Shown in pieces: positions 4,655-14,675 of a stretch of 64,000 nt of DNA; position 1 is the stretch's first letter; each line of letters starts with the position of its first letter. A model generated the notes under the pieces. That model had not been told where the DNA came from. It did not search any database and saw only the letters and a program-made list of their open reading frames with translations. The stretch is taken from contig NC_092804.1 of NCBI RefSeq assembly GCF_040954645.1, positions 43,119,753 through 43,183,752 of the forward strand. Direction: 5' to 3'. A program made the position numbers and the translations under genes. The DNA is from Diabrotica undecimpunctata (lineage: Eukaryota; Arthropoda; Insecta; Coleoptera; Chrysomelidae).

Positions 4655-5045
4655 TGTTACGATAATTATCCTGGCCTAAAATAACCGTAAATATTATGAC
4701 TAATGTGTTCTGTTTTTAGATTTTACGAGAGTATTCTATTAGCCGGCAGAAATTTACCTGAATGAACCTTCCAGAAACGGTCGAGCCGATGTAAAAATAC
4801 CCGTTTGCCTTACCGTTATAATTTCACCACTAATCGAGAAGGCTGTTCGATGATTCTAGCGTAAAGGCAATGGCATATATAAAGGACATTTTATTTGGAA
4901 GGAACAGTTAATTCTCAAGACCCGCGCACGCGAATTTGTTACGTACGGATATAATAAATTATTGTAAGATAAGTTAAAATAAATAAAGAAATAAATTAAA
5001 TCCGTAAGTGTTATAAATATTGAACCTTTTAATAAATTCACAACA
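4655..5045 (+). repeat. 5' LTR of Ty3/gypsy element
   Basis: A 391-bp terminal repeat beginning TGTTACGATAATT and ending TTCACAACA. It matches the 392-bp 3' copy at 10645-11036. The only difference I see is one extra A in the 3' copy near 10668, which implies very recent insertion. A TATATAAA box lies at 4876-4883, and AATAAA-like polyadenylation signals lie near 4975-5035. Confidence 0.95.
4876..4883 (+). promoter_or_regulatory. TATA box in 5' LTR
   Basis: TATATAAA inside the LTR, followed about 20-30 bp later by a plausible start region. It would drive the genomic RNA. The same box is at 10867-10874 in the 3' LTR. Confidence 0.6.
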
Positions 5046-5120: not shown

Positions 5121-8100
5121 ATGACGACGATTTATGAGCTGACAGTGACTAATTTAAGAAGACATCTTGAAGACAGAGAATTAGCTTCTACCGGAAAAAA
5201 GGCTGAGTTAGTCCAACGACTAAAGAACGCTTTGCTAGAAGAAGGACTAGATCCAGAGACTTATATATTTGAAGATGCTGTCCTCTCGTCGATTTCGAAA
5301 GTTTCTGGTGACATCGCATCATTAGAGAACAAAGTTTCTGGCGATATTTCGAAAGTTTCCGGCGACATCGCATCATTAGAGAACAAAGTTTCCGGTGACA
5401 TCGCATCATTAGAGAACAAAGTTTCCGGTGACATCGCATCATTGGAGAACAAAGTTTCTGGCGATATTTCGAAAGTTTCCGGCGACATCGCCTCATTAGA
5501 AAACAAAGTTTCTAACGAGATTTCTTCTCTGGAAAGTAAAGTTTCTGCTAACATCTCTAAAGTCACTTCTGAGATGTCTGCTCTTGACGATAGAGTGTCT
5601 TCATTAAAAAACCAAGTTGCTGCCGATATGTTGGCCTTCGAAGAAAAGATATGGAAAGAGATGGAAAGGAAGATGGAGGAAACAGGGACAGCAGAGAGAG
5701 GAAACAATCCAATTACAGCAGAGACAAAAGAAGACGAGACGAAATGTAAGTTGGAAACACGGCCGAAATTTGAAGGAAGTGGAGGTTCTGTCCATGTGAA
5801 AGTCCCAACTTTCGATGGAAAATCGTCATGGAACAACTACATGAAACAGTTCGAATCAGCCGCAAGAGCAAATGGATGGTCTGAAAAAGAAAAGGCGGTA
5901 AACCTGACTATCGCTCTTCGAGGAGATGCCTTAGATGTGCTTCAGACCATAGCAGTAGAGGAGACCGATGATTTCGAACAACTGAAGAAGAGGTTAAATA
6001 TGCGATATGGCCACGAACATTTGGAGCATGTATATCAGTCGCAGCTTAAAAATCGTAGACAGAAGAAAGATGAGGCTCTTCAAGAATATGAGGTAGATAT
6101 TGCCAGATTAGTACGATATGCTTATCCAACAGCTCCCGAAGACATGATGGAAAAATTGGCCGTTCAAACGTTTATTGATGGTCTTCGTGATCATGAAATG
6201 CAGAGAACACTACGATTAGCTCGTCACAAGACGCTGGTTGATGTCTTATCCGCCGCCCTCGAATACGAGTCAGCTACGCAGGCCTCTGGCGGGTACAGTA
6301 AAGTTAGGACTGTAAAAGAGGAAGGAGATGAAGATAAACTTGACCAGCTCTTTAATTTGATGAAAAGCATGACATGCAAGAAAAAGAAGACCATAAAATC
6401 AAGAAACTCACCATCAGGAAAACCAGAACGAGTCAACCTTAGGGGGGCAGCTTCGACCCGGAACTCTTCCAAAGACCCTCTTATACTAATAGCTTCTTTG
6501 AAATGTCGGGAAGATAGTGTATATGTAGATGGAGAAATAAATGGTAAAAGACATACGTTTTTGGTGGATACCGGAGCGACCAGAACCATTATACGCCCGA
6601 CAGTTATAAACAGCCGAAAGAAACTGTTACCAACAAGGTTGCGACTTCGGACCGCTACAGGTGAAAATGCCAACATTCATGGAGAAATCCAGGTACAATT
6701 GGGAATTGGAGCAGAAAAGTTTGTCCATACTGTTATAGTTGCTGACATCGAAGAGGATGTTATATTAGGAATGGACGTAATGAATATGCATGGATTCCAA
6801 TTGGATTTTAAGAATAAGGTAATCAAAGTTGGCAACGAGGAAGTATTTCTCCATCCACATAATGACAACACTGTGCAAGCAGCCATTAAAGAAGATACAG
6901 TCGTGCCTGCGAGAAGCGAAACGATCATAGTAGCGCGGCTACAGGGAATTGTGGACGAAGGGAGACCTGTTATGATGGAGCCTTGGAACCACGACGATGA
7001 GGTTGGCCGTGGAATCATAATTGGAAAGGAATTGGTGACTTCGGCTAAAGAAATTCCTGTGAGACTTATCAATGTCAACGACTACCCAGTGACCATCAAG
7101 AAAGAGACAAAGGTAGGAACTTGTGTACCTGTGACATCCATAATCCGTCAGGCGACAACATCTGATAATTCCAACGACAAATTCGACCAAATGGTTGCAG
7201 TTGCAGGACAGTCTCTAAATCAGATGGAGAAAAGGAAATTAAGGGAATTTCTTCGGCAGTATCGTGATATTTTCGTACCGAAAGGAGGAAAGACGGGAAG
7301 AACTACCGTTGTTAAGCATAAAATTGATACTGGTAATGCTAAGCCAATTCGTCAAACAGCTCGACGATTACCACAGGCGAAGAGAGAGGAAGCTGAAACG
7401 ATTGTTCAGGAAATGAAGAAAGACGGGGTGATAGAACCTTCTACGAGTCCATGGGTCTCCCCGGTGGTCCTGGTTAAGAAGAAAGACGGAACGACGAGGT
7501 TCTGTGTGGATTACCGTTTGCTGAACAACGTTACCAAGAAAGATAGTTATCCTCTGCCTCGGATCGATGACACATTGGACACATTGGCTGGAAGTAAATT
7601 GTTTTCTACTTTAGATTTGAAGTCTGGATACTGGCAGGTAGAAATGGACCCAGTCGATAAAGAAAAGACAGCCTTCACCACAGGATCTGGATTGTGGCAA
7701 TTCAACGTTATGCCATTTGGACTTTGTAATGCTCCTGCGACATTTGAGAGGCTTATGGAAAATGTGTTGAGAGGGTTATCTTGGAAAACATGCCTGGTTT
7801 ATTTAGATGACATAATCGTCTTGGGGGAGACATTCGAAGATCATTTGAGGAATTTAGAAAACGTTTTTAATCGACTTAAAGCTGCCCAATTGATGCTAAA
7901 CCCCAAGAAGTGCCAGCTATTTCAAGGTAAAGTCAATTATCTGGGTCATATAGTCAGTAAAGAAGGAGTGGCCGTGGATAAGGGAAAAATCGATTCTATT
8001 AAGGAATGGCCAAAACCAACTGACAAACATCAAGTGAGAAGTTTTCTTGGACTATGTACTTACTACCGGAGGTTTATTAAGAAGTTTGCAGATATCGCTA

Positions 8101-10655
8101 AGCCATTAACGCGACTTACAGAGGAAGCAAGAGAATACCGCTGGGATATAGACTGCCAAAATGCCTTTGAAACGTTGAAAAAGCATTTAATAACAGCACC
8201 AATTTTAGGGTATCCACTGCCAGAAGGAGAGTTCATCTTAGATACGGATGCAAGTAATGTGGGAATTGGAGGAGTGCTGTCTCAGATTCAAGGAGGACAG
8301 GAACGAGTCCTCGGATATTTTAGTAAAGTTCTTTCAAAACCTGAGCGGAATTATTGCGTCACGAGAAGAGAACTTCTGGCAGTAGTGAAATCAGTAGAGC
8401 ACTTCTATCAATACCTCTATGGAAGGAAGTTTTTAATCCGAACCGACCATGCCGCCCTTAAGTGGTTGATGCAGTTTAAGAATCCAGAGGGTCAGATAGC
8501 CAGGTGGATCGAACGACTCCAAGAATACGATTTTAAGATTGAGCACCGAGCCGGAGTTAGCCACAGAAACGCTGATTCTCTTTCCAGAAGGCCATGCCCA
8601 GCAGAGTGTTCCCACTGCAACAAAACGGAATCCAAGGAAGCAGCAGTGCTAAGAACGACGATTCTCAACGACGACTGGACGCCTACTAAGATAAGGGAAG
8701 AACAAGAGAGAGATCCAGTTATACAGAAAATCCGAAAATGGAAAGAGGAAAACCGTCGACCACCTTGGCAGGAAATATCGAACCTATGCTCAGTAGTTAA
8801 GACGTATTGGGCCCAGTGGGACTCATTTATCATCGAAGATGGCTTGCTCAAACGAGTCCTGGAAAATGATGACGGTTCAGAGAAGAGAAGACAGTTGGTG
8901 ATCCCAAAGAGCAGAATAGCCGAAGTACTTCGTCAGTTACACGACAGTCCATCGGGAGGGCATTTTGGTGTAAGGAAAACCCTTCAGCGAATTCGGGAAC
9001 GGTTTTATTGGATGAACAGTTCCGACGATGTAAAAGACTGGTGTAAGAAATGTACTATTTGTGCCACGAGTAACGGGCCTTACCGAAAAAGGAGAGCTCC
9101 TATGAGACAATATAATGTTGGAAGCCCGTTTGAAAGAATAGCTTTGGACATCGCTGGGCCATTTCCAGAAAGTGAAAATGGGGGCAAGTACATGTTGGTA
9201 GTAATGGATTACTTCACTAAGTGGGTCGAGATTTATGCACTTCCAGACCAGAAGGCCGCCACCGTTGCAGATAAGTTGATCCAAGAATATATCAGCCGAT
9301 TTGGAGTCCCTTTGGAGATCCATAGTGACCAAGGCAGGAACTTTGAAAGTGATCTATTCCAAGGAATATGTGATAGACTAGGCATGAAGAAAACAAGAAC
9401 TACCGCGTATCATCCGCAATCGGATGGTATGGTAGAACGAATGAATAGGACAGTTGGCAAGTATTTGACAAAGATGGTGTCCGATCATCAGCGAGACTGG
9501 GACCAATACCTTCCGTTCTTCACAATGGCCTACAGATCTGCTGTTAACGAATCAACGGGCCAGACACCAGCCAGAGTCCTATTCGGACGCGAAATGCGAC
9601 TACCTTGTGATCTAGAATTTGGGTGTCGACCTGGAGAAGATGTAGCAGGTGAAGATTATGTGATCGAATTACGAAGAAGAATGGACGATGTACATGAGTT
9701 GGTCCGTTCCCACCTTCAGATCGCTAGCGACCGAATGAAGAAACGGTACGATACACAAGCCGAAAAGGGTTGCTTTAAGAAGAACGACAAAGTATGGCTG
9801 TATAATCCCAAGAAGCGAAAAGGTTGTTCTCCCAAATTGCAGCAGTTTTGGGAAGGTCCATACCTCATCATGGAGAAGATCAACGATGTCATCTACCGAA
9901 TAAGCAAGATTCCGAGGGGAAAGCCGATGATAGTACACCATAACCGGCTGGCGTCTTTCGAAGGTGACCACGACGTAGATGAAGAAGTGGAAGTAAACCA
10001 AGTCCAAGACGTGTCTGACCTCACGTTTGAGGAATTCATGGGTGCCTATGGAGGTACCGGTAAAGCAAGACATGGTGTTACCACTGAAGAAAAGCAAGAT
10101 CTACTCGCGCTCCCCGATGACTACTCGCTGGCCCTTACCATCCCGGCCAGTATCAAAGACGCACCAGGGTTGGCATCCGTCTTTCGAAGGAAGTTTGGTC
10201 GAGTTGCAGAACTTCAATGCCAGGTGCCAGCTCCCGGTAAAACCTTGAAACTCCAAGATGCATCACGTTACCTTTTCTACCTGGTAACAAAAGACACTGC
10301 CCGTGACCAACCTACCTACCGAGATGTGTGGGAAGCCTTACTTCAATTGAGAGAGCACGTACTAGAGTCCGACGTGCAAAAGTTAGCCATGCCAAAGTTG
10401 GAGTGCCGCCAATTAGATTGGAGGGTTATCCGAAATATGGTGGAGGAGATCTTTAAAGACACCGAAGTCCAGGTGTTAGTCTGTTGCAATCCGCATAGTT
10501 ACTGGTGCGGAGAGAAAACCGTCCCTTGTCATTTTTATACAACTGGAAGTTGTAAAAGAGGGTCCAGTTGCCGATACCAGCATACAGTTCCGGTTTCAGT
10601 CCCGACAAGGTTCCAGGAGGAACCATCTTTTAAGAGGGGGGCAATGTTACGATAA
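5121..10655 (+). CDS. Gag-Pol polyprotein with C-terminal macrodomain and CCCH finger
   Basis: A single uninterrupted frame of 1,844 codons from the first ATG (an open GTG lies two codons upstream). Order of domains: SAP-like domain (about 5-41); tandem coiled-coil repeats (58-136) built on KVSGDIASLEN; Gag core (about 229-400); aspartic protease with VDTGA (Asp483); reverse transcriptase (about 735-925) with YLDD at 894-897; RNase H with DTDAS (Asp1043); integrase zinc module (His1274, His1281, Cys1308, Cys1311); DDE core Asp1343, Asp1403, Glu1439 with 35-residue spacing; GPY motif at 1579-1581. Unusually it continues with a macrodomain (about 1655-1790) resembling TARG1/OARD1, and a C-x7-C-x5-C-x3-H zinc finger (Cys1803, Cys1811, Cys1817, His1821). 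No env and no Gag CCHC knuckle were seen. The stop codon lies 11 bases inside the 3' LTR. All catalytic residues I checked are present, so the copy may be active. Confidence 0.95.
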   Translation: MTTIYELTVTNLRRHLEDRELASTGKKAELVQRLKNALLEEGLDPETYIFEDAVLSSISKVSGDIASLENKVSGDISKVSGDIASLENKVSGDIASLENKVSGDIASLENKVSGDISKVSGDIASLENKVSNEISSLESKVSANISKVTSEMSALDDRVSSLKNQVAADMLAFEEKIWKEMERKMEETGTAERGNNPITAETKEDETKCKLETRPKFEGSGGSVHVKVPTFDGKSSWNNYMKQFESAARANGWSEKEKAVNLTIALRGDALDVLQTIAVEETDDFEQLKKRLNMRYGHEHLEHVYQSQLKNRRQKKDEALQEYEVDIARLVRYAYPTAPEDMMEKLAVQTFIDGLRDHEMQRTLRLARHKTLVDVLSAALEYESATQASGGYSKVRTVKEEGDEDKLDQLFNLMKSMTCKKKKTIKSRNSPSGKPERVNLRGAASTRNSSKDPLILIASLKCREDSVYVDGEINGKRHTFLVDTGATRTIIRPTVINSRKKLLPTRLRLRTATGENANIHGEIQVQLGIGAEKFVHTVIVADIEEDVILGMDVMNMHGFQLDFKNKVIKVGNEEVFLHPHNDNTVQAAIKEDTVVPARSETIIVARLQGIVDEGRPVMMEPWNHDDEVGRGIIIGKELVTSAKEIPVRLINVNDYPVTIKKETKVGTCVPVTSIIRQATTSDNSNDKFDQMVAVAGQSLNQMEKRKLREFLRQYRDIFVPKGGKTGRTTVVKHKIDTGNAKPIRQTARRLPQAKREEAETIVQEMKKDGVIEPSTSPWVSPVVLVKKKDGTTRFCVDYRLLNNVTKKDSYPLPRIDDTLDTLAGSKLFSTLDLKSGYWQVEMDPVDKEKTAFTTGSGLWQFNVMPFGLCNAPATFERLMENVLRGLSWKTCLVYLDDIIVLGETFEDHLRNLENVFNRLKAAQLMLNPKKCQLFQGKVNYLGHIVSKEGVAVDKGKIDSIKEWPKPTDKHQVRSFLGLCTYYRRFIKKFADIAKPLTRLTEEAREYRWDIDCQNAFETLKKHLITAPILGYPLPEGEFILDTDASNVGIGGVLSQIQGGQERVLGYFSKVLSKPERNYCVTRRELLAVVKSVEHFYQYLYGRKFLIRTDHAALKWLMQFKNPEGQIARWIERLQEYDFKIEHRAGVSHRNADSLSRRPCPAECSHCNKTESKEAAVLRTTILNDDWTPTKIREEQERDPVIQKIRKWKEENRRPPWQEISNLCSVVKTYWAQWDSFIIEDGLLKRVLENDDGSEKRRQLVIPKSRIAEVLRQLHDSPSGGHFGVRKTLQRIRERFYWMNSSDDVKDWCKKCTICATSNGPYRKRRAPMRQYNVGSPFERIALDIAGPFPESENGGKYMLVVMDYFTKWVEIYALPDQKAATVADKLIQEYISRFGVPLEIHSDQGRNFESDLFQGICDRLGMKKTRTTAYHPQSDGMVERMNRTVGKYLTKMVSDHQRDWDQYLPFFTMAYRSAVNESTGQTPARVLFGREMRLPCDLEFGCRPGEDVAGEDYVIELRRRMDDVHELVRSHLQIASDRMKKRYDTQAEKGCFKKNDKVWLYNPKKRKGCSPKLQQFWEGPYLIMEKINDVIYRISKIPRGKPMIVHHNRLASFEGDHDVDEEVEVNQVQDVSDLTFEEFMGAYGGTGKARHGVTTEEKQDLLALPDDYSLALTIPASIKDAPGLASVFRRKFGRVAELQCQVPAPGKTLKLQDASRYLFYLVTKDTARDQPTYRDVWEALLQLREHVLESDVQKLAMPKLECRQLDWRVIRNMVEEIFKDTEVQVLVCCNPHSYWCGEKTVPCHFYTTGSCKRGSSCRYQHTVPVSVPTRFQEEPSFKRGAMLR
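5289..5528 (+). repeat. 33-bp tandem repeats in Gag coding sequence
   Basis: Near-identical units encode KVSGDIASLEN (11 residues), interspersed with 7-residue KVSGDIS units, followed by degenerate copies (NEISSLESKV, ANISKVTSEM). Alternating 11- and 7-residue periods suit a continuous coiled coil, probably for Gag multimerisation. The DNA-level similarity shows recent expansion. Long antisense frames here are by-products of the repeat. Confidence 0.85.
10632..10644 (+). other. Polypurine tract before 3' LTR
   Basis: AAGAGGGGGGCAA abuts the 3' LTR start. It is the expected primer site for plus-strand DNA synthesis. It is also coding, giving the residues Lys-Arg-Gly-Ala near the C-terminus of the polyprotein. 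Confidence 0.8.
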
Positions 10656-11036
10656 TTATCCTGGCCTAAAAATAACCGTAAATATTATGACTAATGTGTT
10701 CTGTTTTTAGATTTTACGAGAGTATTCTATTAGCCGGCAGAAATTTACCTGAATGAACCTTCCAGAAACGGTCGAGCCGATGTAAAAATACCCGTTTGCC
10801 TTACCGTTATAATTTCACCACTAATCGAGAAGGCTGTTCGATGATTCTAGCGTAAAGGCAATGGCATATATAAAGGACATTTTATTTGGAAGGAACAGTT
10901 AATTCTCAAGACCCGCGCACGCGAATTTGTTACGTACGGATATAATAAATTATTGTAAGATAAGTTAAAATAAATAAAGAAATAAATTAAATCCGTAAGT
11001 GTTATAAATATTGAACCTTTTAATAAATTCACAACA
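10645..11036 (+). repeat. 3' LTR of Ty3/gypsy element
   Basis: A 392-bp copy of the 5' LTR with one extra A. It begins TGTTACG and ends ACAACA. It contains the last codons and TAA stop of the polyprotein (10653-10655), a TATATAAA box at 10867-10874 and several AATAAA signals. It is followed by the ATAT target duplication at 11037-11040. Confidence 0.95.
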
Positions 11037-12210
11037 ATATACTCTCCCAACTTGAAATAAAAGGCAAACAAACACAAATTTTAGATATATCTAAATACGA
11101 AATAAGAAATGCCCTAAATAGGATGAAAAATAGAGCACCTGGCCCTGAAGACTTACCTGTAAAACACGCCCCTTTGGACTTAATACAAGAATTAAAACAA
11201 TTTAAGAAATGCTTATTTGATGGAAAAATGCCGAAATAATGAAAAATGAGCTCTATACATAAAATGGAATATGCGTCACACCTTCTGTGGATAGGTTATA
11301 GGGGAAAATCATTAAAGAAATCATGGAGGAACAACTGCCGACTTCAGAAAAACAGAGTTACCGATAATAGTTTATTATTGGACCTCCAAAAGGCCTTTTA
11401 CAGTGTCCCAGCCAACAACCTGTAGAAAGGAATGGAAAATCACGGAGTAGATAATACTTACATGAATGGCGTAAAATCAGTTTACAAAGACAATGAATGT
11501 AGTATAAAAATCGTACAAACTACCCAGAACCGTTTAAAGAGAGCCGATAAAGGACTTCGACAAAGATGCTGCCTGTCACCAATCTTATTTAAACTTTATA
11601 TAGGTAAAACACTAAAAAACTGGAACAAGAAATGTAGAAAGATTGGTAGTAAAAATTGACGACAACTATATCCACAGCCTTTTATTTGCCGGTGATCAAA
11701 ACGCACTACGTGGTCATTGGAAACACGGCAGAAAACTTGGAGGTGAATAACAACGCAATAAATAAACACATGAATATAAATACTTTATAGGGTAACTTTA
11801 AGAAATACAGTATCAGATCAAACGGGTATAATAAAAATAAAGAATGGAAAGACAATAACAAGACAATTACATTCGATTCGATTGTATAGAGCGACGATAT
11901 TAAAAGCTAAATTGAACACCAAATATTTAAAACAAATCTGGACAGCTGTTCGTTCACTGTATGGCTCAGAGATGTGGGTGATAAATAAAAGGATGGCAAA
12001 CCGAAGGAACGCAATGGAAATGATGTTTTGGAGAAGAAGCTGCAGATTAACGATAATGTACAAAGTGATAAAAAGCAGTTAGAGAACTAATAAAAGTGAA
12101 GCAGACACTAAATGAAATGGAAAAAAGAGACTTCACTGAATAAGGTATATATGACAATAAGAAATGGAGATTAGGATGTGCTAAACAACAAACAGAAAAT
12201 GCTGTGTAAA
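11037..12210 (+). mobile_element. Decayed LINE RT interrupted by the LTR element
   Basis: Successive + strand frames read ALNRMKNRAPGPEDLPV (RT start), LLDLQKAFYSVP (motif A), KGLRQRCCLSPILFKLYI (motif B), FAGDQ (changed catalytic motif, normally xADD) and SLYGSEMWVINK followed by AMEMMFWRRSCR (thumb). Many stops and frameshifts and the lost Asp show it is dead. Its left part lies beyond the LTR element, near 4600-4650. Confidence 0.75.
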
Positions 12211-12486
12211 GCCACCGACAAGTAAGTGTTACTTTTTAACAATTTCTCTTATTTGTAAAAATACTGTCCCAGTAATTATTCTTGGTGGATGGAAGATTGA
12301 CAACTAGTACCTAATACTATTGTTTCTATTATATGCTAATCTTTCTAAGATTGGTGAATCTGTTAAATTAAACCACTACTTAAGATAACGCAGGCTTGAG
12401 AAGAATTTTCTTCTGATTTTCCTGGTTTCAACAATCTTCCGTTTCATTACTAACGTAATAATCATTCTTTCGTCTGTTAGTAGTGG
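12211..12486. other. Spacer without recognised features
   Basis: No coding or repeat signal seen between LINE fragments. Confidence 0.5.
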
Positions 12487-13093
12487 TTAACAGTTTGTGT
12501 TCTGTGTACATTCCTTTGTCATTTTCTTGTGGATAATTATATAAACCCACGAAACTTTTATTTTTCGTTTAAACATCCATATTCCAAATGACTTCTTTCT
12601 TATTCTTCTTCTTCGGCATTTTCCCATTATGAGTTTTAACCCTCCACAGCTTTCTATTATCCCAGTCTTCCATCGCATAGCTGGTCGTTCTCTCCGTCTT
12701 CTTCCTGAAGATATCTTTCCGGCCACCTATAGCCTGGCATTCTTTGATCATGACCATACCATCGTTGTGCTCTGTTTCCTTTTTTTTTGTTGTTGAGCAT
12801 TTTCCAACTTCCATCCGATTCCATATTTCCTCAGTCCTTATTCTGTTCCTTCTGGTAATTTGAAGACATCTCATAAAGTCCAATTCCACTGTTTTTATTT
12901 TATTTCGTATTGTTTTTGTCAATGATCATACTTCTGCTCCGAATAGTGAAATTTTTTCTACGAAGCTGTGAAAGATTATTTGTTTGTTTTCTTTGGTGAG
13001 AGTATTGTTCCATATCAACCCATGAAGTGCTTTTATAGCTTCCTTTCCCCGAGCTATGTTCATTTTTATGTCTCGTAGGCATACCGTCTCCAA
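12487..13093 (-). mobile_element. LINE RT C-terminal fragment
   Basis: Minus-strand reading gives DIKMNIARGKEAIKALHG, NTLTKENKQIIFHS and LFGAEV (13090-12930). Then, in a shifted frame, it gives VELDFMRCLQITRRNRIR and RKKTERTTSYAMEDW (12920-12600). This is the RT thumb and tail of a non-LTR element, with at least one frameshift near 12925. It meets the next LINE head-to-head at about 13093. Confidence 0.75.
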
Positions 13094-14675
13094 GATGAAG
13101 AAATAATTCACCACATAGCAGAACAACTAGTTGAGCAACCAACATTGGAAGAAACGACAAACGTCATAAAACATCTAAAAAATAACAAAGCACCTGTCAC
13201 AGATGGAATAACTGCAGAACTGATAAAGAATGGTGGACATGCGCTATAGAGGCGTATCCATAAACTAATCGACCGCATATGGACACTAGAAGTCATCCCA
13301 GAAGATTGGAAAGTAGGAATCATACTTCCTATGTACAAAGGGGGAAACAAACGACTCTGCAAAAATTATAGGGGCATAACAGTTTTGAAAGTCGTCTACA
13401 AGATATTATCAAGAATTATATACAGCCGCCTGGAATCGTTTTCGGAGGAGATGATTGGTGAATACCAATGTGGCTTCAGACCAAAGAGGTCAACTATAGA
13501 TCAAATACATATGTTAAGAGGTATACATGAAAAATGTGTTGAATATAACATACCTATTTACAATTTGTATATCGATTTCAAACAGGCGTTTGATGGAGTA
13601 GATCGACAAACGATGTTAAAGCAACTATCTATGTTAGGGATACCCAATAAGTTGGTTAAACTTATACGAATGACTCTGGAGGGTTCCAAAGCTATGGTGA
13701 GAATAGATGGAGATATGACGCGGGTCTTTGTTATTGAAAATGGAGTTAGACAAGGTGATGCCTTATTAACAACAATTTTTAATCTAACTTTAGAAGCTGT
13801 TGTTAGAAAACTGGATATAAACGGCTGTATTAATACAAGATCAATACAAATATGCGCATATGCGGATGATGTTGCCATAATAAACCGCAACAAAAAGGTA
13901 TTAAGCGAAAAAGGTATAGAACTGAAACGAGAAGCTGCTACGTTTGGTCTATATATAAATTAAAGCAAAACAAAATATATGGAGTGCACAAAATGGAATC
14001 AATATGAGAATCTGAAGGTAGATAACCATACCTTCAAATATGTCTCCACTTTTGCCTACCTAGGCTCAATAATAAATGACAACAACAACATCAGTCAAGA
14101 AATACAAGCACGGATTCTTAGCATTAATAAGTGCTTTTATGCATATAAAGAATTAATGAAAAGTAAGTTACTGAATCGTAAGACTAAGCTTAGAATCTAC
14201 AAAACAGTATATGACCGGTGCTCACATATGGATATGAAACGTGGACCCTCTCAACCACTGATGAAAATCAACTGAGAATATTTGAGCGCAAAATACTAAG
14301 GAAGATATTTGGACCAACCCAATGCAGCGATGGTTCGTGGAGAATTAAAATGAACCACGAGCTGGATGAACTAATGCAGAGCGCAGATATTGTTAGATTT
14401 GTAAAGTCACAAAGACTAAACTGGCTTGCTCACCTAGAAAGAATGCCAGATAATCGAGCTGCAAAAGTAGTCCAGAGATGGAAGCCCCAAGGAAACAGTA
14501 CAAGAGGAAGACCCCGTAAAAGATGGATAGACGACGTAGAGAGGGATCTTAAAACCATGAACATCAGACAGTGGCGAAGGAAAGTATTCGACAGGACAGA
14601 ATGGAAGAACATTTTTAAGCAGGCCAAGAATCACAAAGGCTTGTAGCACCATTAAAAGAAGAAGGAGAATATTAT
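13092..14675 (+). mobile_element. LINE with nearly complete RT domain, defective
   Basis: The + strand encodes an almost full reverse transcriptase: LKNNKAPVTDGITAELIKNG, NYRGITVLKVVYKILSRII, GEYQCGFRPKRSTIDQI, LYIDFKQAFDGVDRQ (motif A), ENGVRQGDALLTTIFNL (motif B), ICAYADDVAII (catalytic YADD near 13855) and FAYLGSIINDN. It then continues with GYETWTLS and LNWLAHLERMPDNR to a stop at 14644. Defects are a TAG near 13248, a stop at 13961 and a frameshift near 14215. The longest intact piece is 13331-13963. It ends in AGAAGAAGGAG. It is close kin of the copy at 48240-49520. The clade is probably RTE-like, but this is unproven. Confidence 0.85.

Follow-up and report, generated by a model that had tools for sequence, protein, structure and literature searches.

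Human TARG1 (OARD1, C6orf130) is an ALC1-like macrodomain hydrolase. It clears ADP-ribose from the ends of nucleic acids and from proteins (PMC7050489 and PMC6582358). Lys84 and residue 125 of TARG1 work as a dyad, and mutation of residue 125 leads to a covalent intermediate in vitro; of this dyad, the DarG antitoxin has the lysine alone (PMC7050489). In chromoviruses, which are Ty3/gypsy elements, integrase ends in a chromodomain, a ligand-binding domain captured from a host, and fish epsilon-like endogenous retroviruses have acquired a macrodomain (Basta et al. 2009, as cited in PMC4977317). Likewise, the retrotransposon of Diabrotica undecimpunctata described here has acquired a host domain of this kind, which, unlike TARG1 itself, is fused to integrase. 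In the fish retroviruses the macro domains form additional open reading frames, unlike this fusion, and these viruses are the nearest published precedent that we found (PMC4977317). Among the papers listed by searches of open-licence literature, none describes an integrase-macrodomain fusion in LTR elements, judging by titles and the beginnings of abstracts, which is weak evidence of absence.

The element lies within a 64-kb stretch of DNA that is called here the window; all parts of the element given below are on the + strand. Pairwise alignment defines a 5′ LTR (TGTTACG...ACAACA, 4655–5045) and a 3′ LTR (10645–11036) of 391 and 392 nt, whose sole difference is one 1-nt indel. The last A common to both LTRs was excluded at the 5′ LTR boundary, so that the LTR ends in CA. 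ATAT directly precedes the 5′ LTR and directly follows the 3′ LTR, consistent with a target duplication of only 4 nt. A single Gag-Pol-tail frame of 1844 residues from its ATG (5121–10655) stops 11 nt within the 3′ LTR. The polypurine tract AAGAGGGGGG (10632–10641), to which this role is assigned by position only, is in frame and three bases 5′ of the 3′ LTR. Pfam matches identify an aspartic protease (6525–6785, PF13975, E = 8.3e-13), a reverse transcriptase (7473–7955, PF00078, E = 1.9e-39), an RNase H (8142–8528, PF17917 and PF17919), the H2C2 zinc domain and rve core of integrase (8901–9416; PF17921, E = 9.8e-22; PF00665, E = 4.8e-14) and the C-terminal GPY/p58_C module of integrase (9858–9953, PF22938, E = 2.5e-12). 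The LTRs and the order of protease, reverse transcriptase, RNase H and integrase fit a Ty3/gypsy-type LTR retrotransposon. Together, the near-identical LTRs, the ATAT flanks, the polypurine tract and the full set of Pfam domains in order indicate that the element is complete and recent. No further copies of four protein pieces were detected elsewhere in the window (E up to 1e-3), and scanning it for tRNAs and for Rfam families (gathering threshold) gave no matches. By eye, open stretches in the adjoining region (11037–14200; for example, 13331–13963) resemble a non-LTR reverse transcriptase, and the element was probably inserted in or beside older retroelement remains.

The Gag portion begins with a SAP domain (5139–5234, PF02037, E = 9.5e-7), a type of domain that usually binds DNA. 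It is followed by a coil region with imperfect coding repeats (5298–5537, repeat family D2), which consist of 33- and 54-nt units encoding KVSGDIASLEN-like segments, and by the Retrotrans_gag match (5907–6191, PF03732, E = 3e-8). A pattern search of the 453 Gag residues, which include just two cysteines, found no C-x2-C-x4-H-x4-C (CCHC) knuckle. The combination of SAP domain, coil repeats and missing knuckle is, we think, unusual for Gag.

A sequence-only reading of this DNA had proposed that the frame runs on beyond the GPY module into a TARG1/OARD1-like macrodomain, and both points hold: the one frame 5121–10655 carries the domain behind p58_C, and its residues were confirmed there, at 10074–10490. 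The tail matches TARG1 in a phmmer search (E = 2e-22), and its macro fold is closest to that of human TARG1. The Pfam Macro profile suggested in that reading as a check gave no match in the tail (PF01661, E up to 1), so the assignment relies on phmmer, fold and tree; one relative, P0011, does pass the PF01661 cut-off (24.1 versus 22 bits). The likeness to DarG is lower, with 18–24% identity and an NCBIfam DarG score of 30.3 of 250 bits, far under the cut-off. DarG is also bacterial and lies outside any element, unlike the macrodomain of the window.

The sequence-only reading had suggested looking for other gypsy copies with the same tail, and such elements were found. In the first search a single match, P0002 (1339 residues), was as long as a pol protein; it is 77% identical to the window across integrase and tail and has the same order of protease, reverse transcriptase, RNase H, integrase, macrodomain and CCCH finger. 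Two further protein searches contributed 36 matches and the best 120 of 2034 matches. A profile of the macrodomain matches all 143 sequences to which it was applied, namely the window and 142 database proteins. Simple patterns assign at least 46 of the 142 proteins integrase, CCCH or element-end marks in addition to the macrodomain. The macrodomain sits straight behind integrase p58_C in the window, P0002, P0057, P0075, P0003 and P0006. Behind the finger, 10 of the 31 element rows used for the tree (see below) contain LRRGQC, and we read it as a putative translation of the polypurine tract and the LTR start. A chance joining or an assembly chimera of a host gene and an element can be dismissed with near certainty, given the shared order in P0002, the element marks in those 46 or more proteins and the near-identical LTRs that enclose the macrodomain. 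Because the protein database contains nothing but open frames, it favors intact tails, and absence of stops was not counted as selection. An IMG/VR scan with the reverse transcriptase piece returned no relative.

Source names among the matches listed are Diabrotica virgifera, D. undecimpunctata, Psylliodes, Gonioctena, Callosobruchus, Acanthoscelides, Aromia (many), Molorchus, Exocentrus, Brassicogethes, Pyrocoelia, Nilaparvata and Macrosteles. We take Nilaparvata and Macrosteles to be Hemiptera and the other eleven to be beetles. Among the listed matches with a source name, Diabrotica provides the two most similar to the window: P0007, with 84% identity across 56% of the query, and P0005, with 76% across 68%. 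P0005, P0007, P0018, P0016 and P0077 carry the name "ADP-ribose glycohydrolase OARD1-like". The first three match letters of the integrase-macrodomain interval of the element and therefore look like pieces of it, while P0016 and P0077 are assigned to the element by tree position only. This suggests that some public insect gene models of that name are fragments of retrotransposons and would distort counts of gene families.

The tree was built from 102 macrodomains (31 element rows and 71 non-element TARG1-like rows) over 138 columns, which are few for that number of rows. A branch supported at 98/95 separates all 31 element rows from the rest, requiring one label change, and TARG1-like proteins of a coccinellid (P0096), a flea (P0019) and a cockroach (P0068) are among the rows outside. 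The nearest row outside the element group is P0120, a TARG1-like protein of 302 residues (96/80). Six rows, including those from Nilaparvata and Macrosteles, are nested with P0057 among other element rows (99/86). The simplest reading is one capture from an insect TARG1, at the end of integrase. Sequence, fold and tree thus agree with the proposal that the element captured a host macrodomain, and we hold the identity of the tail as a TARG1-type macrodomain, together with its host origin, with very high confidence.

Other arrangements were seen among the TARG1-like proteins. In P0034 (206 residues, source "ena"), which lies outside the element group, a gag-type aspartic protease directly follows the macrodomain; a retroelement may here have taken up such a domain a second time, independently. 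Precomputed labels join the macrodomain of P0029 to PF08719 (presumably NADAR) and that of P0084 to PF00035/PF14709 (which we take to be double-stranded-RNA-binding). By eye, P0086, P0068 and P0120 seem to continue after the TARG1 domain with another macro-like half that has diverged; in P0068 and P0120, Pfam detects just a single Macro stretch. A scan of IMG/VR with query A2 located a TARG1-like ORF of 173 residues (L001:512-1033) on a viral contig of 78.8 kb, perhaps from a large DNA virus, and no element signs were noticed among ORFs of at least 80 residues in the 6 kb of this contig that were examined.

Behind the macrodomain, the tail contains a CCCH zinc finger (C-x7-C-x5-C-x3-H, 10527–10583, PF00642, E = 7.9e-7). 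Its best match in the PDB is CPSF4/CPSF30, with finger 2 of that protein scoring highest and GEKTV preceding the finger in both; the window tail has one finger only. Assigning the finger to CPSF30 was considered, but some 25 residues are too short to tell origin. Of the 31 element rows, 19 have the finger, 5 lack it and 7 are too short to judge, with three changes on the tree. P0075, P0080 and P0090 have no finger although their tails reach its end, so the finger is not indispensable. In P0010 one of its cysteines is replaced by serine, and in P0066 the region looks broken.

Residues were scored on an alignment to TARG1, with the element rows divided into the clade of the window (the window, P0002, P0003, P0004 and P0006; group support 100/98) and 26 others. 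Lys84 is present in the window copy and in 30 of 31 element rows (4/5 in the window clade, 26/26 elsewhere). Asp125 is absent from the window copy and from all five rows of its clade, versus its presence in 26/26 others; one change on the tree suffices for this. The sequence-only reading had placed the tail in a family that binds or hydrolyses ADP-ribose, and it is borne out in part: macrodomain, host capture and the Lys84 equivalent stand, and the catalytic acid Asp125 is missing. Compared with TARG1, the window copy lacks Gly123, Leu124 and Asp125, and its first loop is changed. The loop around position 125 is two residues shorter in four of the five clade rows; in P0006 it has full length with different residues, and arginine replaces Lys84. 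Two Diabrotica fragments outside the tree, P0005 and P0018, have the Asp-less motif as well.

All five clade members retain Asp20 (which we take to be an adenine-site residue), Leu21, Gly43, Phe52, Leu58, Gly66, Tyr80, Leu81, Thr83, Leu100, Pro118, Trp129 and Phe140, and all five have lost Asp37, Met40, Ile44, Lys90, Gly121, Gly123, Leu124 and Asp125. Over the 34 columns with at least 90% host consensus (gaps scored as lost), 106/170 residues are retained in the window clade versus 771/884 in the other element rows. In our reading of the alignment, the clade appears to have kept the fold and rebuilt the active-site loops. Since eight residues are lost in every member and 106 of 170 are retained, ADP-ribose binding is uncertain in this clade. 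An accidentally captured passenger, kept just for frame or folding, would fit the lower conservation of the macrodomain between the window and P0002 (69%, compared to 91% for reverse transcriptase/RNase H and 83% for integrase), the loss of the Asp loop in one clade and the missing finger in some rows. Such a passenger is nevertheless improbable, as the tail is retained across 31 tree rows (in a database that favors intact tails), all 26 element rows beyond the window clade have the catalytic pair, and host-conserved residues including Phe52, Leu58, Tyr80, Pro118 and Trp129 persist in 5/5 rows within it.

The reading we prefer, with a probability of roughly 0.37, is an ancestral ADP-ribose eraser borne by integrase that became non-TARG1-type in the window lineage. 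Being fused at the integrase end, the tail moves along with integrase and would travel with the cDNA as well, unless the protease cuts it off. The ancestral job may have been to strip ADP-ribose at the integration complex so that integration does not stall. PARP1 and PARP2 are active at LINE-1 integration sites, which favors this reading, but they aid LINE-1 (PMC8535693), so ADP-ribose erasure need not benefit an element. Possible targets of the eraser are DNA or RNA ends modified by host ADP-ribosyltransferases, or proteins at the nick. The LINE-1 parallel is loose, because the integrase of LTR elements does not use target-primed synthesis, unlike LINE-1. Relatives outside the window subclade, with both Lys84 and Asp125, could use the TARG1 mechanism. 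The window lineage is most likely without TARG1-type turnover, and its domain might be an ADP-ribose reader, a Lys-only DarG-like enzyme or a scaffold. The CCCH finger is probably an RNA or single-strand binder and may replace the absent CCHC knuckle.

An alternative is a counter-defense function, in which the tail would remove restricting host ADP-ribosylation from nuclear silencing proteins or from cytoplasmic Gag or RNA, as proposed for viral macrodomains. This is a serious rival, because mammalian SIRT6 silences LINE-1 by mono-ADP-ribosylation of KAP1 (PMC4695847). Both TARG1 and viral macrodomains can strip ADP-ribose from RNA ends in vitro (PMC6582358), the macro-domain ORFs of fish retroviruses (PMC4977317) point the same way, and so do the Asp and Lys of the 26 element rows beyond the window clade. 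The catalytic loss in that clade, however, would require an altered host target or a binding-only mode, and we consider this function somewhat unlikely.

A targeting module is the other main rival, because chromoviruses have their chromodomain in the corresponding position, at the C-terminal end of integrase (PMC3605345 and PMC2774666). The macrodomain would then guide integrase to ADP-ribosylated chromatin or proteins, with hydrolysis secondary or lost. No Pfam match to a chromodomain was found behind the window integrase (E up to 1), where the macrodomain and CCCH finger are present instead. The window clade has core residues without the TARG1 dyad, as a reader would. However, two loops are altered in this clade, and the other element rows all (26/26) have both catalytic residues, neither of which a pure reader needs. 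We regard targeting as unlikely. A broader reading can also be formulated: an insect Ty3/gypsy-type family with an integrase-tethered eraser from one TARG1 capture, acting on cDNA or RNA ends, the integration nick or silencing proteins, with a leaf-beetle-like branch that is a Lys-only, non-hydrolyzing reader or a covalent trap. In this detailed form the proposal is tentative and rather doubtful.

The fusion would connect the integration of insect LTR retrotransposons with ADP-ribosylation, a signal in DNA damage and antiviral responses. It also provides a natural series from a host enzyme, through an element enzyme with both catalytic residues, to an element domain without the acid. If the reading of the family as passing from eraser to reader is true, the macrodomain would resemble the chromodomain as an accessory and connect retroelement integration with ADP-ribosylation.
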